Under the pieces are notes generated by a model. The model was not told the DNA's origin. It made no database searches and saw only the letters and a program-made list of their open reading frames with translations. 64,000 nucleotides of DNA. Source: Promethearchaeota archaeon. Lineage in GTDB: Archaea > Asgardarchaeota > Lokiarchaeia > Sigyniarchaeales > SOKP01. Made by a program: the position numbers and the translations under genes. Below, piece by piece: positions 20,668-45,787 of the stretch. How positions within the stretch are numbered: position 1 is the first letter of the stretch; each line of letters opens with the position of its first letter. Location: positions 260,192 through 324,191 of the forward strand of contig JAUWGH010000002.1 in assembly GCA_030606485.1 (NCBI GenBank). The letters are read 5' to 3'.

Positions 20668-22451
20668 ATACTTTTAAAATGATTTTAAAATATTGGATGA
20701 AATCTAAGAAGGATTTCATTCTCGAAATAATCTATTTATTAATGTCTACGCTGTTTTTAGTAATCATCCCAATATTAATAGGAAGAATGATTGGTGGTTT
20801 AGATCCGAATCTTTCAGTGCTTTCTAATGCTAGTGAGCTAATCATTTCATTTAGCTTAATTCTTATGTTTGGTTTTCTAGCCTTTATGTTGGAAAGAGCC
20901 GCGCGATTAAGAGGAGCTGAGGTTTCCTCAAGAGCAGTTTATTATCTTCGCACAGATATCAACAACGCCATTTCTCGACAATCTTTTTCTTATTTTGATA
21001 AAACTGAGACGGGTCAATTAATTTCACGAGCTACAAGTGATGTGGAAGAAAGCGAACAAATCTTTGGTATGGGGTTGAATTTAGGACTTAGATCCATTCT
21101 CCAATTAGGAGGTGTCACTATCGGGTTCATTTTTTTTAGCATAGAATTATCTTGGTTATTGTCAATAGCCATTGGAAGTTCTCTTTTATTATCGTATTAT
21201 CTTGCTAAAAAGTTAAAACCAATATTTTTAGAGACTCGGAATAGTTTTGGGGAATTAACTAATACAATTAGAGAAAATATAGTGGGCGCTCAAGTAGTAA
21301 GGATGTTTAATACTCAAGGTAAAGAACGTCAAAAATTTTCTAAAAACAATGAGCGGTTTTATAAAGCTAGCGTTCATTCAGTAAAATTGAATTCACTCTA
21401 TATGCCAAGCATATACATAATAATCGGCTTCATGACCGTATTCACATTATTAGTTGGTGGAATTTGGGTAATAGAAGGGGTAATGACGTTAGCTACCTTG
21501 ATTACTTTACAATCATTTATCGCGACTCTTGGATTCCCTTTAGTTATGTTAGGACAAATTATGTTGATGTACATTCAAGCCGATGCAGCTTTAACTCGCG
21601 TGAGAGATGTTTTAGAATCAACTCCAGAAGTTAAAGATTTACCAGACGCAACCCCAATTGAACATATGAAAGGTGATGTAGAATTTGAAAACGTTTCTTT
21701 TGGTTACACTTCTGACCATAGGATTTTAAAAAATGTGTCATTTAATATTGCTTCTGGAAAACAATTAGCAATCCTCGGAACGACAGGTTCGGGAAAATCT
21801 ACAATTATCAATTTAATTCCTCGGTTTTATGAAGTAAATGATGGCTTAATCAAAATTGATCAAGAAGATATCCGGAAGTATCGTCTAGAGGATTTAAGGA
21901 AAAATGTTGGGATTGTCTCTCAAGAAACATTTTTGTTCAATAAAAGCATTGCTGATAATATTTCGTATGGCAAAGAAAACGCAACTATGGAAGAAATAAT
22001 TGAAGCGGTTAAAATTGCCAATTTACATGATTTTATCATTTCTTTACCAAAAGAATATGATACTATAGTAGGTGAACGTGGTACAAGGCTGTCAGGGGGT
22101 CAAAAACAACGTCTTTCTATTGCTCGTGCGTTAATTATAAAGCCAAAAATTCTAATTTTTGACGATTCTACCAGTTCTGTAGATGTTGAGACTGAATTTG
22201 AAATTCAAAAAGGATTAGAAAAAATCACTAAGGGAACTACAACTTTCATTATTACTCAACGAATTTCGACTATTCGTAATGCTGATAAGATATTAGTTTT
22301 AGATAAAGGAAGGGTAATAGGTTTTGGTATTCACGATGATTTAATTAAAACTAATGTGTTATATAGACAAATTTATGAAACATTATATTACAAACAAAAG
22401 TCATTACCAGATTTTAAACAAAATACTAGTAATAAAGGTGATCTTCCATGA
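20664..22451 (+). CDS. ABC exporter half-transporter A (degenerate-site subunit)
   Basis: 595 residues: a six-TM type IV exporter domain (~20-310) then a nucleotide-binding domain. Walker A is GTTGSGKST at 372-380 and the signature LSGGQ at 476-480. Walker B ends FDD, so the catalytic Glu is Asp501, and the switch His is Gln532 (TQR). Both changes mark the non-catalytic subunit of heterodimeric exporters such as TM287/288. It overlaps the next ABC gene by four bases. Together they would form a lipid or drug exporter in the cytoplasmic membrane. Confidence 0.9.
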   Translation: MNTFKMILKYWMKSKKDFILEIIYLLMSTLFLVIIPILIGRMIGGLDPNLSVLSNASELIISFSLILMFGFLAFMLERAARLRGAEVSSRAVYYLRTDINNAISRQSFSYFDKTETGQLISRATSDVEESEQIFGMGLNLGLRSILQLGGVTIGFIFFSIELSWLLSIAIGSSLLLSYYLAKKLKPIFLETRNSFGELTNTIRENIVGAQVVRMFNTQGKERQKFSKNNERFYKASVHSVKLNSLYMPSIYIIIGFMTVFTLLVGGIWVIEGVMTLATLITLQSFIATLGFPLVMLGQIMLMYIQADAALTRVRDVLESTPEVKDLPDATPIEHMKGDVEFENVSFGYTSDHRILKNVSFNIASGKQLAILGTTGSGKSTIINLIPRFYEVNDGLIKIDQEDIRKYRLEDLRKNVGIVSQETFLFNKSIADNISYGKENATMEEIIEAVKIANLHDFIISLPKEYDTIVGERGTRLSGGQKQRLSIARALIIKPKILIFDDSTSSVDVETEFEIQKGLEKITKGTTTFIITQRISTIRNADKILVLDKGRVIGFGIHDDLIKTNVLYRQIYETLYYKQKSLPDFKQNTSNKGDLP

Positions 22452-27428: not shown

Positions 27429-27785
27429 ATGAATGAAGATAGTGAATATGTGAAAAAGTTGTATAACTGTCCAGTGTGCAAGGAAACACACACTGTAAAT
27501 CTTCCTAAAAATTTAGCTGATAATCGAACAAAATATCCATTTACTTACGTTTTTCTGCATGGAGAATTAAAGGACTTATTAACTACACTTTATATTGATA
27601 AAAATTTGCAAATCCGTGGAGAACGTGTAATAAAATTGATGGATGATAATATATTTTCTAAAGATCAAGTTTTAAAGATTACACAACAATTAATGAATGA
27701 GATTGTTAATTTACAAAATGAAAATACTCACCTTCGATATGAACTAGATAAATTGAAGAAAAGTAAAATCACTGAAATTCATTAA
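27429..27785 (+). CDS. Small protein with N-terminal Cys pair and C-terminal coiled coil
   Basis: 118 residues. YNCPVCKETHTV at the start gives one CxxC and a nearby His, perhaps half of a zinc site. Residues ~88-112 (NEIVNLQNENTHLRYELDKLKK) form a leucine-zipper-like coiled coil suited to dimerisation. I do not recognise a named family. The last 28 codons and the 190 bp after the stop are copied at 29075-29349, so this family has been duplicated or the gene served as an integration target. Confidence 0.65.
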   Translation: MNEDSEYVKKLYNCPVCKETHTVNLPKNLADNRTKYPFTYVFLHGELKDLLTTLYIDKNLQIRGERVIKLMDDNIFSKDQVLKITQQLMNEIVNLQNENTHLRYELDKLKKSKITEIH

Positions 27786-27976
27786 ACTAAGAATAATGTA
27801 GATATCAATCTTTTTTTTAAAAGAGAATTACTTATTAAGCTTCTTAATTTAAGTAACATTAAAAGATCTTTAAGAAAATACAAGTTTTTAGAGTCTAATT
27901 TAATAGAATTTTGCAAAGAGATAATTTAATAAAGTTATCTTTATATTATTCTTAAGAAATTTAAAGTTCTAAAAAA
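27702..27976 (+). repeat. 275-bp direct repeat, left copy
   Basis: Starts inside the 3' end of the coiled-coil gene (IVNLQNEN...) and continues about 190 bp past its stop. It matches 29075-29349 with about 17 substitutions and no indel (about 94% by hand count; offset 1373 bp). Confidence 0.9.
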
Positions 27977-28050: not shown

Positions 28051-28350
28051 AATATTGAACAAATATGGAGAGATTTATTTATCAATTCTTCTCTTGCATA
28101 AAATCTAACTAGACTTCGTGGATTGAACTCTCCTATTTTTGATCAATACATTTTTGTCATTAACTACATAATTTTGTAGGTATCATCATCAAGCTGGATT
28201 GGGTTGTTAATCTTTGCTGAAATATGTAAATATTCAAATATATATTTCAATATTAATCCCATGATAAGTAACTTTAATAACAAACACATCCTATATTTAT
28301 TTAATGAATAAAATACATTATAATGATTTTAAAAAAGGAAGTGAATAAAA

Positions 28351-28515
28351 ATATCAGAAAAAAAAGAAGAGAAAGAAGAAATAAAACACATTTTAGTTAC
28401 TAATTCAATTCGAAGAAAACTGAAAGTTAAAGTTGCTCAGAAAGACAAATCAATAGTTCAAATAGTAGAAGAATTAATTTATAGGGATAAGAATAAAAAT
28501 GCCCAAGAAGAATAA
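28351..28515 (+). CDS. RHH-type DNA-binding protein, possible ATA start
   Basis: A 54-residue frame, (M)SEKKEEKEEIKHILVT followed by NSIRRKLKVKVAQKD and a second helix VQIVEELIYRDK. The strand-helix-helix layout fits CopG/Arc-type repressors. No ATG, GTG or TTG exists in frame after the upstream stop; an ATA at 28351 follows GGAAGTG at a good distance and may serve as start. Otherwise the gene is inactivated. It overlaps the next gene (ATG 28499). Confidence 0.5.
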   Translation: MSEKKEEKEEIKHILVTNSIRRKLKVKVAQKDKSIVQIVEELIYRDKNKNAQEE

Positions 28516-29074: not shown

Positions 29075-29349
29075 ATTGTTAATTTACAAAATGAAAATAA
29101 TCACCTTCGAAATGAGCTAGATAAATTAAAGAAAAGAACAATCACTGAACTTCATTAAACAAAGAATAATGTAAATATCAATCTTTATTTGAAAAGAGAA
29201 TTACTTATTAAGCTTCTTAATTTAATTAATATTAAACGATCTTTAAGAAAATACAAGTTTCTAAAGTCTAATTTAATAGAATTTTACAAAGAGATAATTT
29301 AATAAAGTTATCTTTATATTATTCTTAAGAAATTTAAAGTTCTAAAAAA
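29075..29349 (+). repeat. 275-bp direct repeat, right copy with gene remnant
   Basis: The first ~82 bp still read IVNLQNENNHLRNELDKLKK then RTITELH and stop, the C-terminus of a second coiled-coil protein lacking its N-terminal part. Substitutions relative to the left copy largely keep the heptad pattern, so the copy came from a related functional gene rather than from fresh duplication. Confidence 0.85.
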
Positions 29350-29421
29350 ATAGAATTCTTAAAGTTCTAAAAAATAGAAACATAATATATTTTATGCATA
29401 TCTTAAAAAATTTTGATTAAA

Positions 29422-30450
29422 ATGACTAAAAAAGGAATTGATAAGGAAAGAAAAAATAGAGAAGAGAGTTCGGAAGAGAAAATACTGACAGAGGAATATG
29501 TGGATAAATTTAAAATAATAGCAGAAAATATTCATAAAACATATCTTCTTGGTACTACAGCGGTTGCAGCCTTGAGAGGTGTAGATCTTAATGTCAAAGA
29601 TCAAGATTTTGTAATCATTATGGGTCCAAGTGGAAGCGGAAAAACAACGTTATTAAATCTTATAGGGGGATTAGATACTCCAACACGGGGGAAGATCTTT
29701 TTAGAAGGCCAGAATATAAGTATGCTTTCTGATAATCAGTTAGCTGATATTAGAAGAGATAAGATTGGTTATGTGTTTCAATTTTATAATTTGTTACCCC
29801 AAATGACAGCTTTAGAAAATATTATGGTCCCGCTTCATTTTGCAGGTAAATTTAGCCGTAGGGGTAAGCAAAAGAGAGCTATGGATTTACTTGAAATGGT
29901 TGACCTTGATGAACGAGCACATCATACACCTTCAGAGTTATCTGGTGGAGAACAGCAGCGGGTTGCAATAGCACGGGCATTCGCAAATGATCCAGCAATA
30001 TGTGTCCTAGATGAACCTACGGGTGATTTGGATAGTAAGACGGGTCAGATGGTAATGAATTTATTACGAGATTTAAATAAGAGGGGTGCAACATTTGTTG
30101 CAGTAACACATGATGCGAAAGTAGCAGAATTTGGAACAACAACACTTCATATGCTTGATGGCAAGATTGTAGAAGAAAGAATTGCGGATGGGCTCAAAGA
30201 AACAAGAATGATGAAAAAGATACGACAAACTGAAGCAGAAGCAAATAAATCTAAGTGTGAGTCTCATATATTTAAATATCTTTTTAAAAATCAAGGGCAA
30301 ACCGAGTATACTATTTCCATAATAAAGCAATCAATTCCGAAACCAATTCTTGATAATATTCCTTTGCATTTTAATGATATTCTCCAAGGAATGATAGATG
30401 ATGGAAAATTGCCCGGAAAGGTTCAAGGTCAAATGCTTATATTTGGATGA
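29422..30450 (+). CDS. LolD/MacB-type ABC ATPase of the surface-protease cluster
   Basis: About 342 residues from ATG 29422 (a TTG at 29413 is also possible). The ATPase core has Walker [11 protein letters not shown] (residues ~68-77), Q-loop [10 protein letters not shown], signature LSGGEQQR, Walker [13 protein letters not shown] and switch His in VTHDAK. This wording is that of LolD, MacB, FtsE and YbbA, the ATPases of mechanotransmitting (type VII) ABC systems. A ~90-residue C-terminal extension (from ~255) is unusual for the group. It precedes the first FtsX-like permease by 85 bp. Confidence 0.9.
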
Positions 30451-30535
30451 TTTATATTTTTCATTAAAACTAACTAAATGTTATATTTAATTCTTAAACT
30501 AAAAAATCGAATGATGAATAAAGAATAGGAACATA

Positions 30536-33523
30536 ATGACAAATATTAAGACAATTTTATCTTATAGCTTTAGAGACCTTCGCCGTCAGAAAGTTCGGGC
30601 TTTTTTAGGTATTTTCGGTGTTATGATTTCTGTAGCTTTACTTACTATAGTTTTATTTTTATCTGATAGTATCTCAACATCTTTTATTGATTATCTTACT
30701 ACAGATGCAGGGAATCAAGATATTAATATTTCAGTGCGTCACTATGACACCGAACCAGAAAATAGATCTAGCTATTTCAAGTATGCTGAAATGAGCGAAA
30801 ACATCTTGAAAAATGTTTCAAAAATTAAGAACTGTATTCCAAGATTTGAATTATATTCAGAAGTTAATGAAACGGCAAATTTCTCTACAATGGAAACAAT
30901 CAATGTCAGACGTGGAGCAAGGATTATTGGAATTAATTTCACACTTGAAAATGAGATAAAATTTGGTTCTTTTGAAAAAGATGAAGAACCAATGATAATT
31001 GAAGGATTAGAGCTTTATCATTTCATGGTTTATGAGACATTTAATGAAAATTTAAGATTAATAGGAGGGGACACAGTTAATTTCACGATATTTTATGATA
31101 ATGGATCAGATTGGATAGAAAAAAATATCACTTTAATTTTTGACGGTATTTTTAATTTTGAAATAAAATTTCCATCAAATTATCGGGGGCATACTATAAT
31201 TTTAAGCCTTGAAACAGTTTATGCAATGCTAGGTGAAGAAGATTATGAGGGACAATGTTCCCAATTAATTTGTACTTTTGAAGAGGGAGAAATTATATAT
31301 GATATTAGGGATGTAGAGACTTCATATTATAATGTAAAAACAATAGCTGAAGATATCCAATATCTTGTCGGTTTTGATTATTATATAGATTTACCGAAAC
31401 TTGAATATCTAGGATTTAGTGAATTTCTTTCAGTTGCTCTTTCTATAATTTTCGTTTTTATCTCCATTATATCTATGCTTATAGCTGGCATATTAATAAA
31501 TGGAATTTTATCAACTTCTGTGGAAGAAAGAATAAGGGAATTTGGCGTTTTCCGAACTTTAGGCGCACATAAAGTATTTAATCTATTTATTGTTTTAGGA
31601 CAAGGACTTATATTATGCCTTATTGGAACAACTTTAGGTATTATATTAGCGATTTTTGGAACTCAATTAATGTTAATTATAGTCAACATAATTTTTTCTG
31701 ACTTAGTTGGGTCATTTTTAGCTGGTGGATTGGTTTTTTCATATTCTATTAATTCCATTTTAATATCGTATATAATGGGGATAATTGTTAGCTTAATGGT
31801 TAGTATAACTCCTGCAATTAAAGTTATGAAATTACAAATAGTTGAGGCAATAAATCCTTACCGGAGAGAGGATGTTTTATATCATTTAAGAAAAAAATCC
31901 TCAGTTAATTATAAATTAATATTAGTAGGCATTATATTAGCATCAAATGGTGGATTTATATATTTAGTCATACCTCAATTACTTCTTACTATGGATTTTG
32001 CTCTTATAGCAGGAGTTCTAATCGCAATTTTATTACTCTTTTTAATAGGGTTAACATTAGCCGGTTTGGGGTTAATGCCAGTAATATTAAATATTGTAAT
32101 CAATCTTTTTAGACCTCTTTCAAGAAAACTCCATTATATTATTAAGATATTTGTTAATAGATTTCAAAGGAGAAACAGTAACACTGTTGTAATGTTCGCC
32201 TTTTCATTTTCTTTTGTCATATTTACATCTACCTTATTAGGATCTTTACAGGGTCAAATTGCAGATATGCAAAAGATCAATACCGGAGCAAGTTTAGTTG
32301 TGAGAACAACTACTTTTAGTAGCGAAGGTGGAGGTGGAGGTATGTTTGGAGGCGGGGGTATGTTTGGAGGCGGAGGTTTTGGCTTATTTACTGAAACAAA
32401 TAATGTTCATGGAATTCATATTTCTAACGAGATTGATCCAATAAGCACACTTACAACGGAATTTCAACAAGAACTTATGACAATAGAAGGAATTGAACGA
32501 ACATCTTCAGTAATCGTAAGTCCAAATCAATTATCGCAAGTTTATGTGGAAATTGGTAAGGAATTTGATGCAGATATTGCTGATTATGTTGGTTTTCAAT
32601 CACATACGATAAGTTTATATGGAATTGATGAACATTACAAATCTACTATCTTTATAGAGGAAGTAAAATTTTCACAAGGGGATATTTCTAGTTTTGATAA
32701 ATTGTTTGAAACAGATAAAAACTATTGCATAATATCTGAAGCCATAGTACAATCCTTAGATTTTAGATTAGGAGAAGAAATTAGAATCACTTTTACAAGA
32801 GGAGATGAGATTGAATATGTTCCTTTTTTCATTGCAGGAATCGCCAATACTATGCCAGGTTTTTCAAGATTTAAATCTTCAGTGTCAGCAGCAAACCGTG
32901 GAGGTGTTTTGATAGCTCAAGAAAATTTTATTGAATATATGGATATTCCTGAGCCTGCATTTATTGATAAAATATTTATTAAACTTACTGATAAAAAATT
33001 ACCCCAAATAGATCAAATTGAAGTAGAAATCGAAAACAAATTTGAATCAAATTATGATTTCTATATTACAAATGTAGAACGATCTATAAGAAATCAAGAA
33101 CAGACCTTTAGGTACCTTAACATGCTTTTCCAATTAATAACAATGGCGACGGTTGTAATCTGTTTATTTGGATTGCTTTCTGCATCATATTCTACAATCT
33201 TAGAAAGAAAGAAAGAGATTGCAATAGTAAGAACCTTAGGATTAAAAGGTAATAGTGTTAATCGAATGTTCATAATTGAGGCATTTATTATAATGATTTC
33301 TTCTGGAGCTATTGGAGTTTTAGTGGGTTGGCTTACAGCATGGTTATTGACATCAAATATGACAACATTTACTGATATGCCATTTCATGGTTCTTTCCCA
33401 TGGGATTCATTATTTTTAGTTTATGGATTGTGCTCAATTGTTACTTTTATTGGAATGCATATTTTATTAAAAAAGGTCCGAACGGGAAATATTATCGAAA
33501 TTTATAGAGAGTCAGGGGTATGA
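30536..33523 (+). CDS. Ten-TM permease with two FtsX domains, first copy
   Basis: 995 residues. TM1 (~20-45) is followed by a ~250-residue outer domain, then a three-TM FtsX module (~298-435) with the conserved EERIREFGVFRTLGA cytosolic turn. After two or more central TM segments (~460-530) and a further TM (~548-570) comes a second outer domain and another FtsX module (~865-985, RKKEIAIVRTLGLKGNSV). This duplicated plan is that of YbbP-like permeases. The second outer domain begins with a Gly-rich stretch of three GGGGMFG-type repeats (~597-617). It works with the upstream ATPase; the substrate is unknown. Confidence 0.88.
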   Translation: MTNIKTILSYSFRDLRRQKVRAFLGIFGVMISVALLTIVLFLSDSISTSFIDYLTTDAGNQDINISVRHYDTEPENRSSYFKYAEMSENILKNVSKIKNCIPRFELYSEVNETANFSTMETINVRRGARIIGINFTLENEIKFGSFEKDEEPMIIEGLELYHFMVYETFNENLRLIGGDTVNFTIFYDNGSDWIEKNITLIFDGIFNFEIKFPSNYRGHTIILSLETVYAMLGEEDYEGQCSQLICTFEEGEIIYDIRDVETSYYNVKTIAEDIQYLVGFDYYIDLPKLEYLGFSEFLSVALSIIFVFISIISMLIAGILINGILSTSVEERIREFGVFRTLGAHKVFNLFIVLGQGLILCLIGTTLGIILAIFGTQLMLIIVNIIFSDLVGSFLAGGLVFSYSINSILISYIMGIIVSLMVSITPAIKVMKLQIVEAINPYRREDVLYHLRKKSSVNYKLILVGIILASNGGFIYLVIPQLLLTMDFALIAGVLIAILLLFLIGLTLAGLGLMPVILNIVINLFRPLSRKLHYIIKIFVNRFQRRNSNTVVMFAFSFSFVIFTSTLLGSLQGQIADMQKINTGASLVVRTTTFSSEGGGGGMFGGGGMFGGGGFGLFTETNNVHGIHISNEIDPISTLTTEFQQELMTIEGIERTSSVIVSPNQLSQVYVEIGKEFDADIADYVGFQSHTISLYGIDEHYKSTIFIEEVKFSQGDISSFDKLFETDKNYCIISEAIVQSLDFRLGEEIRITFTRGDEIEYVPFFIAGIANTMPGFSRFKSSVSAANRGGVLIAQENFIEYMDIPEPAFIDKIFIKLTDKKLPQIDQIEVEIENKFESNYDFYITNVERSIRNQEQTFRYLNMLFQLITMATVVICLFGLLSASYSTILERKKEIAIVRTLGLKGNSVNRMFIIEAFIIMISSGAIGVLVGWLTAWLLTSNMTTFTDMPFHGSFPWDSLFLVYGLCSIVTFIGMHILLKKVRTGNIIEIYRESGV

Positions 33524-33572
33524 AATTCTAAAATTAATATAAACAAAATGAGAGGAAGGTAATAGGAATAAA

Positions 33573-36500
33573 GTGATGTTTAAAAACAAAAAGAATCGAA
33601 TATTAGGGTTTGCATTGGTTATTTTAATGTTAAATATACCTAATTTTATTCTTTTTGGAACAGTTGATAGTTATTATAATAATGAAAATATTGCAGATAA
33701 GCATTTCAACGATGATAATATTCAAGATTTAAAAAAATCAGATGTTGCTGGTTCCGAATTATATTCCGAACAGATAAATGCATATGTGGCAGGGGCTAAA
33801 AGTATAATCCAACAATCTCTCTTTACTAATGATAGTAATATTTTTCCAAACATGGATTTTAATGATCCAGCTTTTTATCTCTGCACCATGATGTTAACTG
33901 CTTCAAATGGAAAAGTATCCGAAATATTTCCTTCTATTTTAGGTGAAAATGTTTTCAGTTCTCAACTTTCACTATCCCATAATTCATTTTTTGGTTTTTT
34001 ATTTTATGAGGAAGAAATTGAACATGAAGATGCACAGAAAAGAGCAGAGAGGGCATTCAAAATTATTAAAAATTTATTTGAAATAGATTTATTTAGAATT
34101 GATACCTCTGAAAAAAACTTTTTCCCCTTTATCGGGTATTATCCCAATTGGGAAATTGTATTAAATAGACTTTATGCGAATCTTCCGAAGGACGGTTACT
34201 GGAAAGCGCTTGATTTAGATCGCTTATTGAGTAATGAATATTTAGAAAAACAACACTTAAGTTTCTCAATTCTTTTATTAAATTCGTTGGAAATCTATAA
34301 TGAAGGTATTAATATCACATCATCTCAATTTAATTACGATATTTCTGATTATGCTTTACCGTTCTTAGAAACATTTAATATGGGTGAATCTAATGAAACT
34401 ACAGAAGGATTAGAAGGTCTGTTCGGTGGATTTGGAGAATTCTTAGGTATTGAAGATCTTAATCAGACTTTTTTGGAGGGTTTTGATGCAATTTTAGGAT
34501 CAGGTGGAGGAATGTTGGATGAAAACAATCGATATATAACGATGAAAATCCAATATGAAGGAAACCCTGAAGGAATTGAAAAAATTACTGGTTCTAACAA
34601 TTATACTTTTGATTTATTTAAAGCAATGGGATATAATGAAACCACTTTATATCCTAGTGAGAAAATGTTTATCGCCATTATTGGAACTTTCATGAGTGAA
34701 ATTGAGGTTAATATTCTTTCCACAGACATAATAGATGTATCTCCTAAAAATTTTCAATTTTCGGATGATCTGATTGAAGACCTCGAAGAAATAATTTGGT
34801 TAACAGATGTAGATTTTGATATAAATTCATTAAAAAATTATGAATTTATTCCAAACTGGGTAAATATTTTAGGAGTTAATAAACTATACACGCTTCCGAT
34901 TAACCCAGTAAATGAATCAGATATTATTAATTTCTTAGATATAATTGGATTTGATGGATTACCTTATATCTTGACAGGTTTGTTAAATCCAATTGAATCT
35001 ATAATTGTTAGTTATTCTGTTGCAAATTCAGAACCGAATTTAAGAATTACAAAAATTGTTGAAAATGCTTCCTATGGGATTGATCGTACATTTCAAATAA
35101 ATATTACTGCAGAAAATGTCGGAAACACTACTGCATGGGGTGTACCAACTAAATTACCTGTAGATTACGAAGAATTACTCAATGCAGTTTTTTTTTTACC
35201 AGGTAGTAGGGAGGATATAGAAGATTATTTTGAAGAAAGTTTGATAACACTTCTAAATTTAGATGAAGATCCAAGACTGTTTCACTTTGATTCTTCTAGT
35301 ATTGGAACAACAGATACTTTTTATCCTAATATAACCAATCTTTTACCATATAATGAAGAATTCGTTGAATATTTAGTAGATCATCCACCCTATAACATTT
35401 ATGCTCCTTTTTTTAATAATTCTGATAGTATTTTCAATGAAGAAAATTGGAAACTGGAACCAGGAGAATCAATTTCTTACACACTTACTAACATATCAAT
35501 TGAAAATTTAGATACATATACACCATTTGCAACTAATAATTTTATTGAAAACGAGGAAATTCCACTTCCTGCAATAAATTATGGATCAACTCATATAGGC
35601 ACTAAACCAAATAATGCTCATACTCAAGATGGAATTGATTGGATCATAGATTCGGAGGAAAAAATTGTAGATTATCATATTATTGATATTGATTTTGTAT
35701 TTGAAAACAAGTCTTTTATTGATCTAACAAATAATATATTAAATAGTGTTAGAATTTATATGAATGCTACTTCTGATGGTTTTTCCGAAGATGTTTCTTT
35801 TAATTTTTATAATTTTACATCAGAACGACTGGAAAATATTACAGAGATTTCAAGTGACAATAACACATATATTTTCGGATTTATCGATGATGAAATTAAT
35901 GGATTATTTGATCCCGCATCAAATAATCACACCCTATTTTTTAATTTAAAAATTATATCCAATGATACTTTTAATTTATCAATTGATAGTATTTACGTTA
36001 ATTTTTCATTTAGAGAAATTGTTCCTTACCTCGTACAATCTGCAAAAGTATCTTATAGTAGTGAATTGGGACTAGTTACTTATTCTGCTACTTCAAATAA
36101 TTTATATCTTAGCACATATAATATGTCTTCAATTTTAGCAATTGCATCCTTGGAAAATTATGCATCATATCCTGGTCAAGAAAATACATATTTTGTGGAG
36201 CTCACAAATATTGGAAGTATGAATGCTGAGAATGTTTATTTTTCTATGCCTATACCAGGGATAATTAAAAATAAAAATTCTTTTCAAGTAAAGAATGGCA
36301 CAATAACTCAAAAAATGACAGAAATTAATCCAGGTCAAACAATTAAATTAAGTTTTACATTTTATTCTCCAAATTCAATAAATATTTTGAACAGTACTGT
36401 TGTTTTTAAAAATCAAAAAATTATGAATGAAAGCCAATCTTCATTGACTATCCATTCCAACGATGTTTATATTTCAGCTCCTATTGATTATGAGAATCGT

Positions 36501-37415
36501 TATCCTTTTTTGCACATAATTAAAATCAATTATTCAACAAATAATACTCACCCTAAATTAAACGATTTTATTAATTTATCTATACAAATTGAGAATCAAG
36601 GACCCGCAAATTTTGATATTCCTGATATCTTAATTGAAATATCTGACAATATCGAAGGATTAAAACGTTTAGATAATGATACTTTAGATATTACTGACTT
36701 ATCTTGGAAAGAAACTAAAGTAATGTCGATGATCTTCCAAAAGACATCTTATAGAGGATATTATTACCCACCGATAAATGTTATTTTAGGCTCCGAATGC
36801 TCCACTTTACGAATTATTACATCTATACCAATTATATTAGGCTATTTTGATTTTGAGATTAATAAGAATGTTTCTGAAGAACAAGTGATTATTGGTAAGG
36901 AAATATATGTAACGGTTGAAATTATTAATATGGGGAATATTGCAGCACAAAATGTTTCATTAGATGATATGAATAGTTTTTTTCAACAGCAATTTTATTT
37001 GATTGAGGGCACCTTGGTTCATTTCATTCAAGTTCTTGAGCCAGGAGAAACATTCACATTTTCTTACACAATAATAGGAAAAGAACAAGGAGAACATAAT
37101 CTATCCGCTGCTTGCATTGATTATTATTATTTAATTAAGAGACCCGTTGAATCTAATTCTATTCAAATGAAAATTATTTTAGATCCAAATATGCAGAGAC
37201 TATCTATAATCATTCCATGTGTAATTGTTCTATTTTTTATCGGATCTTACGGATTTCTGAAAAAACGGTATAGATCAAATATGCTTGAGAAAAAAAGAAA
37301 TGAAGATGAGATTTTAAATGCAACTAAATTTACGACTATTTTAAGGCATAAAGAGACTTTAAATGATTCATTAGAAAGAGTGAATACACTCTACGGAGGT
37401 AAATCAAGAAAATGA
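33573..37415 (+). CDS. 1280-residue membrane-anchored surface protein
   Basis: GTG 33573 or ATG 33576 is the start. A signal or anchor helix (~10-28) precedes a ~1180-residue outer region with many N-x-S/T sequons. Four stretches look like Ig-like/DUF11-type repeats, each with phrases such as VENVGNTTAWGV, LTNIGSMNAENVYFSM, IENQGPANF and IINMGNIAAQNVSL and a following LEPGET/INPGQT-type turn. A TM helix (~1206-1226) and a basic cytosolic tail of about 55 residues close the protein. It overlaps the subtilase gene by four bases. It may be a scaffold or receptor for the protease/ABC assembly; no enzyme motif is seen. Confidence 0.78.
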   Translation: MMFKNKKNRILGFALVILMLNIPNFILFGTVDSYYNNENIADKHFNDDNIQDLKKSDVAGSELYSEQINAYVAGAKSIIQQSLFTNDSNIFPNMDFNDPAFYLCTMMLTASNGKVSEIFPSILGENVFSSQLSLSHNSFFGFLFYEEEIEHEDAQKRAERAFKIIKNLFEIDLFRIDTSEKNFFPFIGYYPNWEIVLNRLYANLPKDGYWKALDLDRLLSNEYLEKQHLSFSILLLNSLEIYNEGINITSSQFNYDISDYALPFLETFNMGESNETTEGLEGLFGGFGEFLGIEDLNQTFLEGFDAILGSGGGMLDENNRYITMKIQYEGNPEGIEKITGSNNYTFDLFKAMGYNETTLYPSEKMFIAIIGTFMSEIEVNILSTDIIDVSPKNFQFSDDLIEDLEEIIWLTDVDFDINSLKNYEFIPNWVNILGVNKLYTLPINPVNESDIINFLDIIGFDGLPYILTGLLNPIESIIVSYSVANSEPNLRITKIVENASYGIDRTFQINITAENVGNTTAWGVPTKLPVDYEELLNAVFFLPGSREDIEDYFEESLITLLNLDEDPRLFHFDSSSIGTTDTFYPNITNLLPYNEEFVEYLVDHPPYNIYAPFFNNSDSIFNEENWKLEPGESISYTLTNISIENLDTYTPFATNNFIENEEIPLPAINYGSTHIGTKPNNAHTQDGIDWIIDSEEKIVDYHIIDIDFVFENKSFIDLTNNILNSVRIYMNATSDGFSEDVSFNFYNFTSERLENITEISSDNNTYIFGFIDDEINGLFDPASNNHTLFFNLKIISNDTFNLSIDSIYVNFSFREIVPYLVQSAKVSYSSELGLVTYSATSNNLYLSTYNMSSILAIASLENYASYPGQENTYFVELTNIGSMNAENVYFSMPIPGIIKNKNSFQVKNGTITQKMTEINPGQTIKLSFTFYSPNSINILNSTVVFKNQKIMNESQSSLTIHSNDVYISAPIDYENRYPFLHIIKINYSTNNTHPKLNDFINLSIQIENQGPANFDIPDILIEISDNIEGLKRLDNDTLDITDLSWKETKVMSMIFQKTSYRGYYYPPINVILGSECSTLRIITSIPIILGYFDFEINKNVSEEQVIIGKEIYVTVEIINMGNIAAQNVSLDDMNSFFQQQFYLIEGTLVHFIQVLEPGETFTFSYTIIGKEQGEHNLSAACIDYYYLIKRPVESNSIQMKIILDPNMQRLSIIIPCVIVLFFIGSYGFLKKRYRSNMLEKKRNEDEILNATKFTTILRHKETLNDSLERVNTLYGGKSRK

Positions 37416-40400
37416 GAAATATTAAAAAATTCATATTAACTTTCTTGTTCATATTTTTTTTCCTACTTTCTACATTCAATCCGAACTTTTATACTTCAAG
37501 TATTAATGAACAGCAAAATAGCACGGAAAGTAATAATTTAGAAATTCCAGTATTATCAAATAGCGAAGTTTTAGTAAATATCATTGTTTCCTTTAACAAA
37601 GAATCATTTAATCAAACTGTCATAAATAAATTTGAAGAATTAGGGGGAATTATAAAGGATGGGCCTTGGAATAAGACATTTTTAACAATTTCTGGATTCT
37701 CCGGGATTTTTCCATCAGAAAATTTAACATATTTTAAAAGCTACTATCCAGAAGCAAATATTGAATCTAATGAATTAATTGAAGTACAAATGAATTATGT
37801 AGTGGCTCAATCCAATGCAATGAATAGTACTTGGAGTCTAAATGGATACACTGGGAATTCGAATTGTTCAACTGCAGTTTTAGATTCGGGAATTGATTCA
37901 AATAATACTTTTTTCCCAACAGGAATTAATCCAATAAATCTCACAGGAAATATCATAAGTTGGAAAGATTTCATACATGAATTGCCAAATCCGTATGATG
38001 ACAACGGACATGGAACATTCATATCATCTATCATTGTAGGGACAGGAACTGAACCCTATAATTCTACAAACAAAATCAATATGACCTTTTCTGGTAATTA
38101 TTCTCATATGGATACGTTTGATGAGTATATGATTGGAAGTAACTTTACTTTTAAACTAGCTACTTTTAATGTATCAAAAGAAAATTCTCAGGTTTTTGTG
38201 AATTCGAGTTGGAAAGAAATTATAGCGGGAATTGATGAATTTTGGATCGAGCTACATAACGAAACCTCATTGGTAAATAAATCTAAAAATATTAAAAATG
38301 AAACATTTTATCAAATTTATCATAATAATTCTTTGAGTGGTATTGGTTTATATGATATTTTTATAAAATATCACAAATTGAATTATGTAAAACCAGAATT
38401 TTCCTTAGACCTGGAACTCTCTTTTTTTCCCGAATATTATATTGTAAATAAAACCCATTTTACAGGAATTGCAAATGCATCAAAAATTGTTAACTTTAAA
38501 ATTGTAAATGCAACTGGTTTTGGAAATGTGTCAAGTTTAATTTCTGCTATGGAAAATGTTTTTCTAAATAGATCTAAATTACATATAACCGCGATTTGCC
38601 TTAGTGTTGGAACTTTAGGCGATGAAGTGTCAACAATAAATGAAGTTATAAATGATATTATTGATAATGGAACTCTTGTTGTTATTGCAGCAGGAAATAA
38701 TGGTTTAGAACCAAATTCATTAAATAAATTAGCTTCCAATAAAAAAGCAATTGTAGTTGGAGCAATAAATGATAGAGATCAAATTACAACATATAGTAGC
38801 ATTGGAAAAATAATAGATGAAGATCAACCCAATGAGGTAATAAAACCTGATTTAGTGGCTCCTGGTGGCAGTAAAATAAAAGGGTATAGATCTATTGTTG
38901 GCACGAATTTAGAAAATGAAACATCTGCCTACTTTGGCACTTCTATTGCCACAGCGGTAGTTAGTGGAGCGATTCAATTATTAATTGAAGCGAAATGGAA
39001 AAATTGGACATCTTGGAACTCCTTAAATACTACTGAATTAGCAAAAATTGTTAAAGCAACATTATTAATGACTGCAACCGAAACACAATTAAATAGAGAA
39101 GAAGATCCTGAAACCGATGAAATAGAGAGTAACTATTCACCTAATACAAATTACGGTGGTAAAGATATTCATGAAGGATACGGACGATTGAATGTTGAGG
39201 CTGCAATCGACGCATTGACAAAAAATATAAGCACAGGGATAATTAAATCTACCTTCAATTTAACATCATCAGAAATAAATCCTCTAGGAAAACATGTATA
39301 TGCCAGAAAAATTACACTAGAACCGAAAAAACAGTATTTATTTAATTTAACGGTAGAACAATCTTCAGCCACTATTGATATGTATTTATACTCTAATGAA
39401 ACTAACAAATTTGGAGAACCTATATTATTTTCTTGTGCTTATGAAACTAGACCATTTTATACAAATTTACTTTACTTTTCTCCCAGAATGAATGAAACAA
39501 AATGCATTTTAGTAATCAAGGCTCTGAGTGGAAAGTCTAATTTTACTTTAAATATTAGTGAGGTTGAAAACAATTATTCTCCAAGTTTAAGCAACTGCTT
39601 TGTTGAAAGCACTAATCCTGATTGTAATTATACTTTAAATCGATATAATTTCTATGTTAATTATACAGATAATGATACTTCTAACTTTCCAGCTCAATTT
39701 GTATACTTAGAAATTAAAGAATTAAATCAAAACTTTACTATGAATAAAGATCCTAACGATTTTAATTTTACAAATGGAGTAGAGTATTCTATTACGAATT
39801 TTGAATTTAAAGAAATAAAACTTTATCATTTTATCTTCTGGGCAAGTGATGGATACAATATAACTCGATATCCTCTGGGGGGTAATCTCACTATTGAAGT
39901 AAAGCCTTTTTATGCTATTAATATCCCATATTACGAAAACTTTACGAGTATTACTCATAACTGGGCTGTAGAAGGTACTGGATGGAAAAGACTAGGACAA
40001 GAAAACTTCGATCTTATGGGTCAGCCTTTTGATGATAGAAATAGGATATTTCCTTCTAATGATTTTAATCCTGATTGGTATTGTTTTTATTATGGTAATA
40101 CTAGCACACCACTTACTCCTTATTCATATGAACCTTTAGAATTAAATGGAGATGGAATTAATAGTTCGTTAATAAGTCCAATAATAGATCTAACTGAAAT
40201 AGATGAGAGCTATGATCTAATAGCTAAATTTGGCCTTAGAGTTAGTATAAATGCATTAGATTTCATATACCTACAAATTAATATCAATTGTTCTATGAAT
40301 TGGGTGACACTCAGAACCTACACAAATATGGAACGAGAATGGTTTATGGAAGAGATTGGTTTATCACCATACTTGAGTAATTATGTTCGTTTTAGATTTT

Positions 40401-42145
40401 ATTCTGATCTTAATGAACAGAGAGATTTACAGAATTATAAGGGATTTATGGTAGATTATGTAGCAATTGAAAATTACTCCAATTATTATGATCCTCAAAT
40501 AATAACTCAATTTACCGAGATAGTATCTCCTGGAATTGATGAAGTCCAATATGAGTATGATATCTATACATTCTCAATTGATGTATATGATAATGATAAT
40601 AATTATCCAGCCTATGTGTATGTTGAAATAAATGATAATAACTATACGATGAATAACATTTACGGAGATTGGAACATCTCATCAAATATTTCAATAGAAG
40701 ACACAGGTATTCGATTTGAAAAGGGATTATATATTGAAGACTTTGACGATTTGACATTTAGATTTCACGTATATGATGGGAATAATATTAATTCAACCGA
40801 ATGGTATAATACGGAAGAGAACCCCCTAATTGAATTTTCTAATCCAATACCTTATAATTACTCCTCGGATTTTGGGTACGAATTTAATGTTCAGTCTTTT
40901 GATGAGTTTTATATAACAGGCATTCCAGAACCGAGAGAATATACAATTTGGCTTTCAGCAGATGATACATGGCATTATATGAATTCCTCAATATATTGCG
41001 GAATTGGCCAAACGAATATAATAACTAGTGATAATGGATATGGAGAAAACTGGAATGCAAAATTAATAACTCACCCGCTGAATTTAGGAACAAAAAGTAA
41101 GAATTATATTCAATTTTTTCAAAATATAACTTTAGAAAATGAGAACGCGACATTCTATGAGGGAAATGATTATGATCAATGCAATATTTCAATATCAACC
41201 GACTTCGGAGCAACTTGGCATGAATTAAATAAATATACCTATTTGAACAATAGTGAAGGTTATTATTATATTGATATCTCTAACTTCAATGGTGAGATTG
41301 TTATGGTTAAGTTTGAACTAGATTCAAATAATGAAACAAATCCATCCGGACTTGGATGGTTTATAAAAGATTTATTTATCGGTTATAGCGTCTTAATTGA
41401 TTTTGTGAATCCGATAAATGAAATTGTTGTAAATGGTGTTCAAATAATTAATATTTCTATATCTGAGAAGCATGGATATGATTTAACACAAATTAAATTA
41501 TACATTAATGATACATTAGTTAATGCTACCTATGAAAATGGAACATTGAATTTTGTTTGGGATACTTCATTATATTTAGATGGGGAATATATAATAGAAA
41601 TTGTCGTATATGATAATTACGATAATAAGATAGATACTTCAATTGTTATAATAGTGGATAATATACCTATTTGGATTGATTGGCTTCCCTGGATAATTCT
41701 TATTGGTGTGTCGATAAGTTTATCAATAATTATAGGATTAATTACTGTTAAAAGAGGTAAAGTTTTGATTGATGGAATTAAAGCAAATCGCAGTGAAATA
41801 AAGAAAAGAATTAGACTGTTTGATGAAGATAAAGAAAAAATCAGAAAAAGAGTTGATAGTTTGACTAAAGAAGAATTAAAAGAAAGACCTTATACATATT
41901 TCTGTAAGAATTGTAAATCTTGGTTTGTCGATAATTCTGGTTTTAAATGGATGTGTCCAGCATGCAATACAGATCAATTATATCTTGCATATCAATGTCC
42001 TATTTGTAAAAATTGGTATTTTAAAGATGATCCAAGAGATTATAATTGTAAAAAATGTAAAATAAAAATGGTAAAGCTATCAATGGAAGAAATTAAAAAA
42101 GAATTAGTTTGGAAATCATTTGATGAATTAGGAGAAAAATCCTAA
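37412..42145 (+). CDS. Membrane-anchored subtilisin-like protease with cytosolic double zinc ribbon
   Basis: 1577 residues. A signal helix (~7-22) and pro-region lead to an S8 domain with Asp158 (AVLDSGID), His200 (DDNGHGTF), oxyanion-hole Asn in VIAAGNNG and Ser511 (FGTSIA). A ~140-residue insertion lies between the His and the core strand near 355. C-terminal to it are a PPC-like domain, Ig-like repeats and two sandwich-like domains. A TM helix (~1424-1447) is followed by a helix and four CxxC pairs (CKNC, CPAC, CPIC, CKKC; ~1498-1555) forming two zinc ribbons inside the cell. It would cleave proteins at the cell surface. All catalytic residues are intact. Confidence 0.88.
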   Translation: MRNIKKFILTFLFIFFFLLSTFNPNFYTSSINEQQNSTESNNLEIPVLSNSEVLVNIIVSFNKESFNQTVINKFEELGGIIKDGPWNKTFLTISGFSGIFPSENLTYFKSYYPEANIESNELIEVQMNYVVAQSNAMNSTWSLNGYTGNSNCSTAVLDSGIDSNNTFFPTGINPINLTGNIISWKDFIHELPNPYDDNGHGTFISSIIVGTGTEPYNSTNKINMTFSGNYSHMDTFDEYMIGSNFTFKLATFNVSKENSQVFVNSSWKEIIAGIDEFWIELHNETSLVNKSKNIKNETFYQIYHNNSLSGIGLYDIFIKYHKLNYVKPEFSLDLELSFFPEYYIVNKTHFTGIANASKIVNFKIVNATGFGNVSSLISAMENVFLNRSKLHITAICLSVGTLGDEVSTINEVINDIIDNGTLVVIAAGNNGLEPNSLNKLASNKKAIVVGAINDRDQITTYSSIGKIIDEDQPNEVIKPDLVAPGGSKIKGYRSIVGTNLENETSAYFGTSIATAVVSGAIQLLIEAKWKNWTSWNSLNTTELAKIVKATLLMTATETQLNREEDPETDEIESNYSPNTNYGGKDIHEGYGRLNVEAAIDALTKNISTGIIKSTFNLTSSEINPLGKHVYARKITLEPKKQYLFNLTVEQSSATIDMYLYSNETNKFGEPILFSCAYETRPFYTNLLYFSPRMNETKCILVIKALSGKSNFTLNISEVENNYSPSLSNCFVESTNPDCNYTLNRYNFYVNYTDNDTSNFPAQFVYLEIKELNQNFTMNKDPNDFNFTNGVEYSITNFEFKEIKLYHFIFWASDGYNITRYPLGGNLTIEVKPFYAINIPYYENFTSITHNWAVEGTGWKRLGQENFDLMGQPFDDRNRIFPSNDFNPDWYCFYYGNTSTPLTPYSYEPLELNGDGINSSLISPIIDLTEIDESYDLIAKFGLRVSINALDFIYLQININCSMNWVTLRTYTNMEREWFMEEIGLSPYLSNYVRFRFYSDLNEQRDLQNYKGFMVDYVAIENYSNYYDPQIITQFTEIVSPGIDEVQYEYDIYTFSIDVYDNDNNYPAYVYVEINDNNYTMNNIYGDWNISSNISIEDTGIRFEKGLYIEDFDDLTFRFHVYDGNNINSTEWYNTEENPLIEFSNPIPYNYSSDFGYEFNVQSFDEFYITGIPEPREYTIWLSADDTWHYMNSSIYCGIGQTNIITSDNGYGENWNAKLITHPLNLGTKSKNYIQFFQNITLENENATFYEGNDYDQCNISISTDFGATWHELNKYTYLNNSEGYYYIDISNFNGEIVMVKFELDSNNETNPSGLGWFIKDLFIGYSVLIDFVNPINEIVVNGVQIINISISEKHGYDLTQIKLYINDTLVNATYENGTLNFVWDTSLYLDGEYIIEIVVYDNYDNKIDTSIVIIVDNIPIWIDWLPWIILIGVSISLSIIIGLITVKRGKVLIDGIKANRSEIKKRIRLFDEDKEKIRKRVDSLTKEELKERPYTYFCKNCKSWFVDNSGFKWMCPACNTDQLYLAYQCPICKNWYFKDDPRDYNCKKCKIKMVKLSMEEIKKELVWKSFDELGEKS

Positions 42146-42184
42146 CATTAATTATATCATAATTTAAAAAATTTATAATTTAAA

Positions 42185-45139
42185 ATGAAATTAAAAAAAA
42201 GATTAAAGAGAACATCTAACTTTCAATGGCTGAAACATTCCTGGGTGGATCTCAAACGAAACAAAGCTAAGACCCTATTCGGAGTCATGGGGATTTCAAT
42301 CTCAATTGCTTTGTTAACTGGTATAGGAATGGTCAATGACACAATGAATTTTAATTATATGGATATGGTCACTAATCAAACAGGATCCGCCGATATCTGG
42401 ATAATGAAGACACTCAGCACTGACATGAGTTTTGATCTATATTTCAACCATAGTTATGTAGAAGATGTCCTAAAAGAAATAGAAGAAATTGAAGAAATGT
42501 TCCCTCGATTGCAGATCTTACCTGTTGATGTGAATAATCTTGAGAACAATATTAGTGGAAGTATAATGCTTTATGGAATCGATTTTGAAAGAGAAAAGGA
42601 TTCCAGGATTATTGGAGATCTTATAATTTATGATGAAAATTTAACTGAGACTGATGAAATTTACGAAAATGTACCAGAAAAAGGACATTGTATAATATTA
42701 AAAGCAACAGCCGTTAAATTAAACGCGTCAAAAGGAGATACATTACATTTGGTTTATCAGAATAAAGAGATCGACTTAGTTATTGATGAAATTTGTGTCC
42801 AAGATTTAAAATTTAATGAATATGAAAATAATCAAATTATTATGGATATTGAACATGTTCAAGATTGGCTAAATCTGGGTGACCAAGCATCTATGGTTAT
42901 GGTCTTGTTAAGAGATAGAGAATTTATTTATGATTCAAGTGATATTAAAGGTACAAAACTAACATTAAGAGATATTGGAGAAGAAATCCAAAAAATCCTT
43001 ACAATTGAAGAGTATCAAGTTATGCTTCCAAAATTAGAAGAATTAGAAATGTCCGAATTTTCAATGATGGGACGGACAATTATGTTCTGGTTTGTGACTT
43101 TATTATCTATGTTGATAACAGGTATCCTAATAAATGGTATATTATCAACTTCAGCAGAAGAAAGAATTAGAGAATTTGGGATAACACGAGTTTTGGGAGG
43201 AAAGAAAGTTTATTCAATTAAAATGGTTTTATTTGAAGGATTTTTATTAGGGACATTTGGAACTATAATTGGAATTATTGCAGGAGTATTTATTACACCT
43301 CCATTTGTCAATTCACTATTTGATTTTTTCATTAGACGATATGGTGAAAACTTTGAATATATTATCAGCCCTCAAACGATTATTTTGGCTATTATAATTG
43401 GAATTGTAGTATCTGTTGGTGTTGCATTAATACCTGCATTAAAAGTATCACGAATCAAATTAATAAAAGCTATAACTCCTTTTCAAACTAAAGAAGAAGG
43501 ATGGGAAGTAGCTAAAGAAGGCTCCATGAATGTTAAAGGATTTTTAGTAGGAATCTCAATTGCGCTTATTGGTTTGTTAATTTTTATATTACTACCCCGA
43601 ATATTTACTTCAATGGATATAATGTTAATAGCAATTTTTTTTATTGGACTATTAGCAGCGATTGTACTTGGATTGGTCTTTGCATCTCTGGCAATTATAC
43701 CTTATATACAAACATTTATGGTGTATATATTAAAGCCTTTTTTTCGAAAATATATGAATATAGTTAAAATATCTTTAAAAAGATACCAGAGAAGAAATTC
43801 TGGGACAATTTTAATGTTTGCAATATCATTCTCATTCATATTTTTCATAACAACTTCTTCTGAAATTGAAAAACAAACTTGGTCTTTAAATTTTAAATTT
43901 CAATATGGAGCAGATTTAGTACTTGCTAATTATGGAACTTCAGAAGAAGGAAATGCTTTTACTATAGAGTCCGTAGAGGAGCTAAAGGAATTGCAAGGTG
44001 TGGAAGAGGTTGCACCGGTATTACACAATTCATTTGATCTTACTTCCTTCTTGTCTTTATTAGATTTTAGTTCTGAATCAGGATTAGACTTTAATCCAGA
44101 GCAAATTCAAACTGTTATGAGACAAGCGGCAACATTTAGTCAATATGGAGAGAGTAAATTTTCAATAACTATTTCTGATGTCGTAGATTTTGCTTCTGTC
44201 GATGTAAAAATAGTTGGAGTTGACGAACGATATCTTAATCTAGTAGATCGAAATTTATTTATTTGGAAATCTGCAGGGAGTGGATTTGATGCATCATTTT
44301 CTGCAATTTTGGATAGAAATGATGCGATTATAATCTCTAAAGCAATAGCAGCAAAAATAGGTGTAAAAGAAGTTGGGCAAAAAGTAAGATTGACTGTTAG
44401 AGATCCAGAAAAGGGTGGAACTGGAAATCTCTCATTATTTGAAGTTGTTGGAATTTCTGGAGGAGTGCCGGGTTTTATTAATTTTAAATCTTCAGAAATG
44501 ACGGCGGAAGATGGTGGGATTATGGTTTCTATGGATACATATATTGAACTTATGAATTGGCCTAATGGTGGAAAAGATATGATTGTTGATAAAATTTTTA
44601 TTAATTTAGCTGATCCAAGTGAAGAAAATATTAGAGATACAAAACAATTGATAAACGATATGTATATGAATAATTTTTTTACTCTTGATGATGCTATTAC
44701 TAAAATTAAATTTGTTGAAGAGATGAATGAACAATTTTCTTCACTCTCAGAAATTCTTCTAACATTTACTGTCATTATTTGCATTTTTGGGTTAATCTCA
44801 TCGATGTATGCAACAATTCTTGAAAGAAATTTAGAAATTGGAATATTACGAGCACTCGGAATGAGAATAAAAGAAGTAAGAAATATGTTTCTATTGGAGA
44901 GCATGATTTTAATGATTTCGGCTGGTTTTATGGGGGTGTTAATTGGCAGCTATTCGGCTTACTTGATGGAGAGCAATTTATCCCTCATGACAGAATTACC
45001 AACAATATTTTCTATCCCAATAGATACAATAATTAGAGTATTTGGTATAAGTGTTATTATTGGGATAATAGGAATGTATTTAATATTATTAAGACTGAGC
45101 AGACAGACTTTAATGGATATCTTTAGACAGACCTTTTAG
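42185..45139 (+). CDS. Ten-TM permease with two FtsX domains, second copy
   Basis: 984 residues, with the same architecture as the permease at 30536. TM1 is near 30-53. The first FtsX module near 287-435 has EERIREFGITRVLGG. Central segments occupy ~450-550, with the second outer domain after that, and a last FtsX module near 855-980 has RNLEIGILRALGMRIKEV. It lacks the Gly-rich GGGGMFG stretch. Sequence divergence from the first copy is large, so the two may form a heterodimer served by the single ATPase, or act alternately. It ends the cluster, 39 bp after the protease gene. Confidence 0.88.
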   Translation: MKLKKRLKRTSNFQWLKHSWVDLKRNKAKTLFGVMGISISIALLTGIGMVNDTMNFNYMDMVTNQTGSADIWIMKTLSTDMSFDLYFNHSYVEDVLKEIEEIEEMFPRLQILPVDVNNLENNISGSIMLYGIDFEREKDSRIIGDLIIYDENLTETDEIYENVPEKGHCIILKATAVKLNASKGDTLHLVYQNKEIDLVIDEICVQDLKFNEYENNQIIMDIEHVQDWLNLGDQASMVMVLLRDREFIYDSSDIKGTKLTLRDIGEEIQKILTIEEYQVMLPKLEELEMSEFSMMGRTIMFWFVTLLSMLITGILINGILSTSAEERIREFGITRVLGGKKVYSIKMVLFEGFLLGTFGTIIGIIAGVFITPPFVNSLFDFFIRRYGENFEYIISPQTIILAIIIGIVVSVGVALIPALKVSRIKLIKAITPFQTKEEGWEVAKEGSMNVKGFLVGISIALIGLLIFILLPRIFTSMDIMLIAIFFIGLLAAIVLGLVFASLAIIPYIQTFMVYILKPFFRKYMNIVKISLKRYQRRNSGTILMFAISFSFIFFITTSSEIEKQTWSLNFKFQYGADLVLANYGTSEEGNAFTIESVEELKELQGVEEVAPVLHNSFDLTSFLSLLDFSSESGLDFNPEQIQTVMRQAATFSQYGESKFSITISDVVDFASVDVKIVGVDERYLNLVDRNLFIWKSAGSGFDASFSAILDRNDAIIISKAIAAKIGVKEVGQKVRLTVRDPEKGGTGNLSLFEVVGISGGVPGFINFKSSEMTAEDGGIMVSMDTYIELMNWPNGGKDMIVDKIFINLADPSEENIRDTKQLINDMYMNNFFTLDDAITKIKFVEEMNEQFSSLSEILLTFTVIICIFGLISSMYATILERNLEIGILRALGMRIKEVRNMFLLESMILMISAGFMGVLIGSYSAYLMESNLSLMTELPTIFSIPIDTIIRVFGISVIIGIIGMYLILLRLSRQTLMDIFRQTF

Positions 45140-45184: not shown

Positions 45185-45787
45185 TTATAAATTTTGTTTA
45201 AGAAAATCCTCTAATTTGTTAAATGCTTGACTTCTATGAGATATTTTATTTTTTATTTCAATCGAAATCTCAGAAAAGGTTTTATCTGGAAACGTATCAG
45301 GTAAAAAAATAGGATCAAAACCAAAACCATGGTTTCCCCTCATCTTTTTAGCAATTTTACCACTAACTTCACCTTTAAAAATTTTAATTTCATTAATTGG
45401 TTTGAAATAGAGTGCAATAACGCTCTCGAAATGCGCACAAGTTTTGGACTCTTCTCCAATTAACTTAAGAATCCCTTCATTTCCTATGGTTTTATGAACA
45501 TACGCCGAATAAACTCCCGGAAATCCATTTAAAGGCTCATCAACGAAAAATCCAGCATCTTCAACAAAACAAGATTCATTTAATTTATTCTTAACACTTT
45601 TAATTTTAAAGACAGCTACATCTCTTAAATTATCGGCTTGTATTTCAATCGGTTCGAGGTTAGAATGAAATAACTTATATTTTTGATTTAAATTAGATTT
45701 ATTAAAAATTTCTGAAACTTCATTAAATTTATGAATATTGCCGGTGATAAAATGAATGTATTTTTTTCCTCCTTTCATATTAGCCAA
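45185..45787 (-). CDS. XTP/dITP diphosphatase (HAM1/RdgB family)
   Basis: 200 residues; starts at 45787 or at Met 45778. Motifs of the family are FITGNIHKFNEV near the N-terminus, ADNLRDVAVFK, CFVEDAGFFVDEPLNGFPGVYSAY and GNHGFGFDPIFLPD, ending with SHRSQAF. The enzyme removes non-canonical purine triphosphates (ITP, dITP, XTP) to their monophosphates, cleaning the nucleotide pool. It is monocistronic and converges with the permease gene. Confidence 0.92.
   Translation of the reverse strand: MANMKGGKKYIHFITGNIHKFNEVSEIFNKSNLNQKYKLFHSNLEPIEIQADNLRDVAVFKIKSVKNKLNESCFVEDAGFFVDEPLNGFPGVYSAYVHKTIGNEGILKLIGEESKTCAHFESVIALYFKPINEIKIFKGEVSGKIAKKMRGNHGFGFDPIFLPDTFPDKTFSEISIEIKNKISHRSQAFNKLEDFLKQNL

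Follow-up and report, generated by a model that had tools for sequence, protein, structure and literature searches.

A lokiarchaeal gene block joining a type VII ABC ATPase, two YbbP-like permeases, a giant surface protein and an accessory subtilase: a candidate mechanotransmission machine

Type VII ABC machines have been described mainly in bacteria, where they take part in cell division, lipoprotein sorting, efflux and lipid hydrolysis. A stretch of 64,000 nucleotides (here called the window) from the 3.75-Mb genome of a member of the Lokiarchaea, close archaeal relatives of eukaryotes, raises the question of what such a machine does when one ATPase gene is joined to two permease genes and to the genes of a giant surface protein and a protease. 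Five plus-strand genes occupy positions 29,413–45,139 of the window in the order ATPase, permease 1, surface protein, subtilase and permease 2. They are separated by 85, 49, −4 and 39 bp, the negative value being a 4-bp overlap between the surface protein and subtilase genes. Comparison with Pfam and NCBIfam assigned their products to ABC_tran, FtsX, CARDB/DUF11/TRAP_beta and Peptidase_S8; all the open reading frames described in an earlier note on this DNA were present with the sizes and gaps given there, and their identities matched. No description of this five-gene system was found within the scope of the literature searches made.

Loci related to the block were retrieved from a search of 97 related genomes and their open reading frames were mapped. 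The same gene order on a single strand and contig was found in 35 genomes, including that of the window, which represent about 10 genera of this lokiarchaeal order. These loci consist of the window and 28 others from its own family (f1), five from f2 and one from f3; contig ends truncate three of them, and in one the permease 1 gene is split. The genomes that carry the block are labelled Lokiarchaeota, Prometheoarchaeum, Harpocratesius or Sigynarchaeum, and one metagenome-assembled genome (MAG) is labelled Bathyarchaeota. Of the genomes of the order with a completeness of at least 90%, 33 carry the four large genes together, 10 have none of them and in 2 only the protease is missing; these counts come mostly from MAGs and from phylogenetically non-independent orthologues, and the Fisher tests of co-occurrence made on them ignore phylogeny. 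One of the 10, G052, has part of an ATPase gene at the end of a contig, so its apparent lack of the block is an artefact rather than a true absence. Related loci in G092 and in a Heimdallarchaeota MAG consist of one ATPase and one permease gene with no surface protein gene. One part of the block lies at 1.58 Mb and the other at 3.10 Mb in the single-contig genome G037 (L066, L067), where both the surface protein and the protease are truncated; the cause would be either misassembly or inversion.

In most f1 genomes the block lies between an RNase III-like gene upstream and a Ham1-family gene downstream. The latter is found in the window at 45185–45787 (minus strand; PF01725, 1.6e-46) as a neighbor that is not part of the machine, and the genes flanking the block in the window are ordinary and unrelated to it. 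Where the block is missing, the Ham1-family orthologue adjoins the RNase III-like gene and thereby marks the empty site; the flanking genes are about 123, 29, 389 and 389 bp apart in G018, G049, G007 and G015, respectively. The last ~20 codons and the stop codon of permease 2 are still present in the gap of G018 (alignment score of 62, compared to at most 41 among 500 shuffles), indicating that deletion removed the block as a unit in this genome. For the other genomes without the block, either loss or original absence could account for its lack. The synteny, the co-absence and the deletion scar led us to reject chance clustering of the five genes. These results support the claim of the earlier note that the five families form one linked block, and the rare co-occurrence in related genomes that it had named as evidence of an accidental linkage was not observed.

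Other features surround the block in the window. A 275-bp direct repeat (27702–27976 and 29075–29349, 94% identical) brackets about 1.1 kb with small open reading frames, one of which (about 28350–28515) appears by eye to be ribbon-helix-helix-like; this segment, which lies immediately before the block, has the appearance of a small integrated element. The small open reading frame that fills the empty site of G007 and G015 is similar to one of the window at 27429–27785, which encodes 118 amino acids with a CxxC motif close to the beginning. Farther upstream, an adjacent pair of ABC_membrane/ABC_tran half-transporter genes of the classical exporter type (20664–24988) is unrelated to the block.

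The ATPase gene (29413–30450, plus strand; ABC_tran, 1.5e-35) encodes a protein of 345 amino acids if translation starts at the TTG at 29413, or 342 if it starts at the ATG at 29422. The Walker A, Q-loop, LSGGEQQR, Walker B and His switch motifs are conserved across 40 aligned orthologues, and the protein is a LolD/MacB/FtsE-type ATPase of the type VII ABC superfamily with intact catalytic motifs. The closest NCBIfam model is that of LolD (TIGR02211), which the protein matches with 239 bits, below the 308-bit cut-off for membership in that family. A C-terminal extension of about 85 amino acids (30193–30450, plus strand) can be aligned in families f1 to f4. This conserved extension is not typical for LolD or MacB ATPases. 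Weak Pfam matches to PCI (best 4e-5, 3 of 22 members) and to the F-93 winged helix (best 0.001, 5 of 22) tentatively suggest a winged-helix/PCI-like domain, and comparison with the PDB gave no convincing match for it.

Permease 1 (30536–33523, plus strand; 995 amino acids) and permease 2 (42185–45139, plus strand; 984 amino acids) share 31% identity and are paralogues. Each contains two FtsX domains, about 10 transmembrane (TM) segments according to the TM profiles, and two ectodomains of 250–290 residues (amino acids ~43–302 and ~569–862 in permease 1), which is the one-chain pseudo-dimer with 10 TM segments and two outer domains that characterizes the YbbAP-type subgroup. Both permease groups in the tree hold members from f1, f2 and f4, and therefore a single duplication must be older than the diversification of the order. 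The domains and their layout are those of the FtsX-fold TM domain of type VII ABC proteins, with an outer domain between TM1 and TM2, and the fold was tested on a structure model of permease 2 (mean pLDDT of 73.6). The top PDB match was E. coli YbbP (9ge6/9ge7; E 5e-20), full-length over about 1000 columns, with a TM-score of up to 0.58 by target and about 12% identity, which bears out the type VII and YbbAP comparison made before; LolE (also LolC), BceB and MacB followed. The scores against the NCBI YbbP model NF041854 were 13.8–16.1 bits for a cut-off of 999, so the permeases are YbbP-like in fold and not YbbP orthologues.

The motif for docking of the ATPase is kept in all four FtsX halves. 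Both permeases thus look ATPase-competent, and each is expected to bind a pair of ATPase subunits. Since each is a complete pseudo-dimer with both docking motifs, the two could form separate complexes that use one ATPase in common. Taken further, the block might encode two ABC machines and two surface proteins that respond to one surface condition and have only the operon in common, being inherited together with no physical coupling. We regard this explanation as very unlikely, as the strict gene order, the 4-bp overlap in the window and the co-absence of the genes favor a tight coupling, although they fall short of proving it.

Some indication of how the permeases may be arranged on the cell surface was provided by N-glycosylation sequons, counted in related and thus not independent sequences. 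Ectodomain 1 of permease 1 is about 2-fold enriched in sequons, exceeding the expectation in 42 of 43 sequences, while ectodomain 2 (32240–33121, plus strand) is depleted, with an observed/expected ratio of 0.26 in f1 and values under expectation in 33 of 33 f1, 3 of 3 f4 and 6 of 7 f2–f3 sequences. Sequons are also enriched in the surface protein and in the stalk of the protease. The depletion hints that ectodomain 2, predicted to be shielded or partner-facing, is covered by a partner, and the overall pattern is compatible with an assembly at the outer face of the membrane. Within ectodomain 2, at about 32320–32400 of the window, most f1 sequences have a Gly/Phe-rich loop (GGGGMFGGGG) that none of the f2 and f4 sequences shown possesses.

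The closest structural relative offers a working comparison. The structure of YbbAP has no path through the membrane, and the proposal made for this complex is that it pulls hydrophobic molecules out of the outer leaflet and hands them to the hydrolase TesA without membrane crossing (PMC12646458). The lokiarchaeal block resembles the E. coli YbbAP-TesA system (PMC12646458; 9ge6/9ge7) in having a 10-TM double-FtsX permease with two outer domains, a separate ATPase and a hydrolytic partner on the outer side. It differs in its archaeal host, its two permeases per ATPase gene, its giant surface protein and the extra C-terminal domain of its ATPase; furthermore, the hydrolase is a periplasmic esterase/thioesterase in E. 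coli and a membrane-anchored subtilase here. The grouping of subtilase and ABC transporter genes also recalls the lantibiotic clusters, in which a subtilase accompanies an ABC exporter, and could point to export and maturation of a secreted product. This is highly improbable: the gaps between the genes are too small to accommodate a precursor gene, the flanking genes are ordinary and unrelated, and YbbAP, the closest system by fold, has no through-membrane path (PMC12646458). The likeness to LolCDE lies in the LolD-like ATPase, the match of permease 2 to LolE and LolC, and the possible extraction of membrane-anchored molecules. However, LolC and LolE each contribute a 4-TM half to a single transporter, while each permease here is a full 10-TM pseudo-dimer, and no LolA was seen within the block.

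The third gene (33573–37415, plus strand) encodes a giant surface protein of 1280 amino acids that, like the subtilase, has an N-terminal signal and a single C-terminal TM segment, here followed by a tail of about 50 amino acids. The AF2 model of its ectodomain (pLDDT 81.7) consists of an alpha/beta N-terminal region and a stack of Ig-like domains. A Foldseek search of the PDB with the N-terminal region yielded no specific match, only generic multi-domain beta-sandwich matches with TM-scores mostly below 0.15. Full-length homologues are confined to this order among the 228 genomes of the phylum searched. The membrane-proximal Ig domain (36849–37172, plus strand), which adjoins the TM segment, is similar to TRAP-beta (SSR2), a protein of Asgard archaea and eukaryotes: it matches PF05753 (2.2e-21), and TRAP-beta provided the only sequence matches of the family profile in the PDB (best 1.6e-4). 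CARDB and DUF11 match the same domain, so the similarity may be a generic Ig-like one. The possibility that the surface protein is a TRAP subunit was rejected because the match is limited to the last domain. TRAP-beta is a short single-domain translocon subunit whose solved chains have about 183–186 amino acids, whereas this protein has 1280 and is encoded inside an ABC gene block. The profile of the TRAP-beta-like domain also matches TRAP-beta-sized proteins across other Asgard genomes.

The subtilase gene (37412–42145, plus strand; Peptidase_S8, 8.7e-31) encodes a surface-anchored protein of 1577 amino acids with a signal, a propeptide-like region (amino acids ~45–122), the S8 domain (~123–605, with an insert at ~216–345), a beta-rich stalk, the TM segment (1426–1444) and cytosolic zinc ribbons. 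The residues required for catalysis, Asp158, His200, Ser511 and the oxyanion Asn429, are in place. This triad and the oxyanion residue are retained by 35 of 38 orthologues (the window protein and 34 others), which therefore qualify as S8 proteases. The remaining three (G064, G068 and G072) do not; they have Asp replaced by Gly, His by Leu or Gln, and the oxyanion Asn by Asp, and most of the propeptide region is missing (24–32% of columns filled) from otherwise full open reading frames. They form one clade that spans two genera (g13/g16). An assembly error was rejected, since three genomes of two genera share the Asp-to-Gly and Asn-to-Asp changes, the propeptide loss and the full reading frames, and since pN is 0.19 for a saturated pS of 0.76 in the G064/G068 catalytic domain. 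Judging from these sequences, the subtilase of this clade is a pseudoprotease still under purifying selection.

Other genomes lack the protease altogether. No subtilase gene is present in the otherwise intact Sigynarchaeum-type blocks of f4 (G063, G065, G067 and G069) or in G009, which belongs to f1; in these genomes the surface protein gene directly precedes that of permease 2, with about 3–115 bp between them. With f4 as the outgroup, the subtilase was either gained after the f4 split or lost in f4. Its absence from G009, where no subtilase match was found in the genome at the search threshold, is most simply explained by a later loss. Eleven subtilase homologues outside the block have about 30% identity, varied lengths and no FtsX permease neighbor; they are stand-alone genes, and recruitment of any nearby subtilase was rejected. 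The genomes with an absent or dead subtilase also led us to reject the protease as a universal core component. The constant core is the ATPase, the two permeases and the surface protein, and the subtilase is an accessory, usual yet replaceable.

This variation bears on the proposal, put forward in the earlier note, that gating of the protease defines the machine. FtsX consists of just one 4-TM unit and has one outer domain, and the partners of FtsEX are activators of cell-wall hydrolases. The block shares with FtsEX-EnvC and FtsEX-PcsB only the idea that an ATPase and an FtsX-fold membrane protein control a hydrolytic activity on the outer side (PMC12646458). An FtsEX-like gate, in which cycling of ATP toggles the subtilase and controlled surface proteolysis is the purpose, would fit with the position of the subtilase within the block, its presence in 33 of the 35 block-bearing genomes that are at least 90% complete, its usually intact triad and the cytosolic zinc ribbons, which could sense the ATPase. 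Nonetheless, the protease is dispensable here, unlike in an FtsEX-type system, where the hydrolase is a constant output; it is absent or dead in three lineages, and the core is kept in f4 and G009 without it and in g13/g16 with an inactive one. Together with the eleven homologues that have no FtsX neighbor, this makes the gate unlikely, and the proposal was not sustained.

The zinc ribbons form a double domain (amino acids 1498–1549; 41903–42058, plus strand) whose eight Cys residues are invariant across 35 aligned orthologues, the catalytically inactive ones among them. Such conserved cytosolic domains on both the protease and the ATPase, the patchy presence of the block, and the finding of BceAB(S), a system with a 10-TM type VII permease, among the structural relatives of permease 2 would suit a BceAB-like module for sensing and detoxification. 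In such a module an antimicrobial or membrane-active compound would be detected by the permeases, captured by the surface protein and destroyed by the protease, and the zinc ribbons and ATPase extension would relay the signal. We consider this function quite unlikely, as the block includes no sensor kinase or response regulator, and BceAB(S) has one dominant outer domain while the permeases here have two, as does YbbP, the better match.

The outputs of type VII ABC systems include lipoprotein release, efflux, control of cell-wall hydrolases and peptide sensing; since they are so different, the fold does not fix the function. With this in mind, we hypothesized, with moderate confidence, that the block encodes an archaeal type VII ABC mechanotransmission machine that works outside the membrane through the surface protein and has the subtilase as a partner, a reading based on sequence, structure models and analogy. 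One LolD/MacB-like ATPase would power the two paralogous YbbP-type 10-TM permeases in a physical complex, and binding of ATP would shift their outer domains. By analogy with outer-leaflet extraction by YbbAP, which involves no transmembrane transport, these domains may perform mechanical work at the outer face of the membrane, with the giant, sequon-rich surface protein acting as the putative adaptor. Most likely, a substrate embedded in the membrane, such as a lipid or a lipid- or TM-anchored surface protein, would be pulled, remodeled or released. The subtilase, as a partner of the core, would cleave the substrate presented by the machine; in one clade it would have turned into a non-catalytic structural partner, and elsewhere it would be dispensable. 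A more specific version can be offered only tentatively: a single lokiarchaea-specific supercomplex of two YbbP-type permeases, one ATPase and a stalk protein with a TRAP-beta tail, with an exchangeable subtilase (active, dead or absent), might use ATP to turn over or shed anchored surface glycoproteins.

The block is a well-conserved archaeal type VII ABC system of unusual composition in a lineage near the eukaryotes. Its natural variants, in which the protease is intact, inactivated or missing or the block is cleanly absent, allow the part played by the permease core to be told apart from that of the protease, by comparison and experiment. The TRAP-beta-like domain found in Asgard genomes may bear on the origin of eukaryotic TRAP-beta. 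If the machine remodels or sheds surface glycoproteins, it would provide a handle on the maintenance of the Asgard cell surface.
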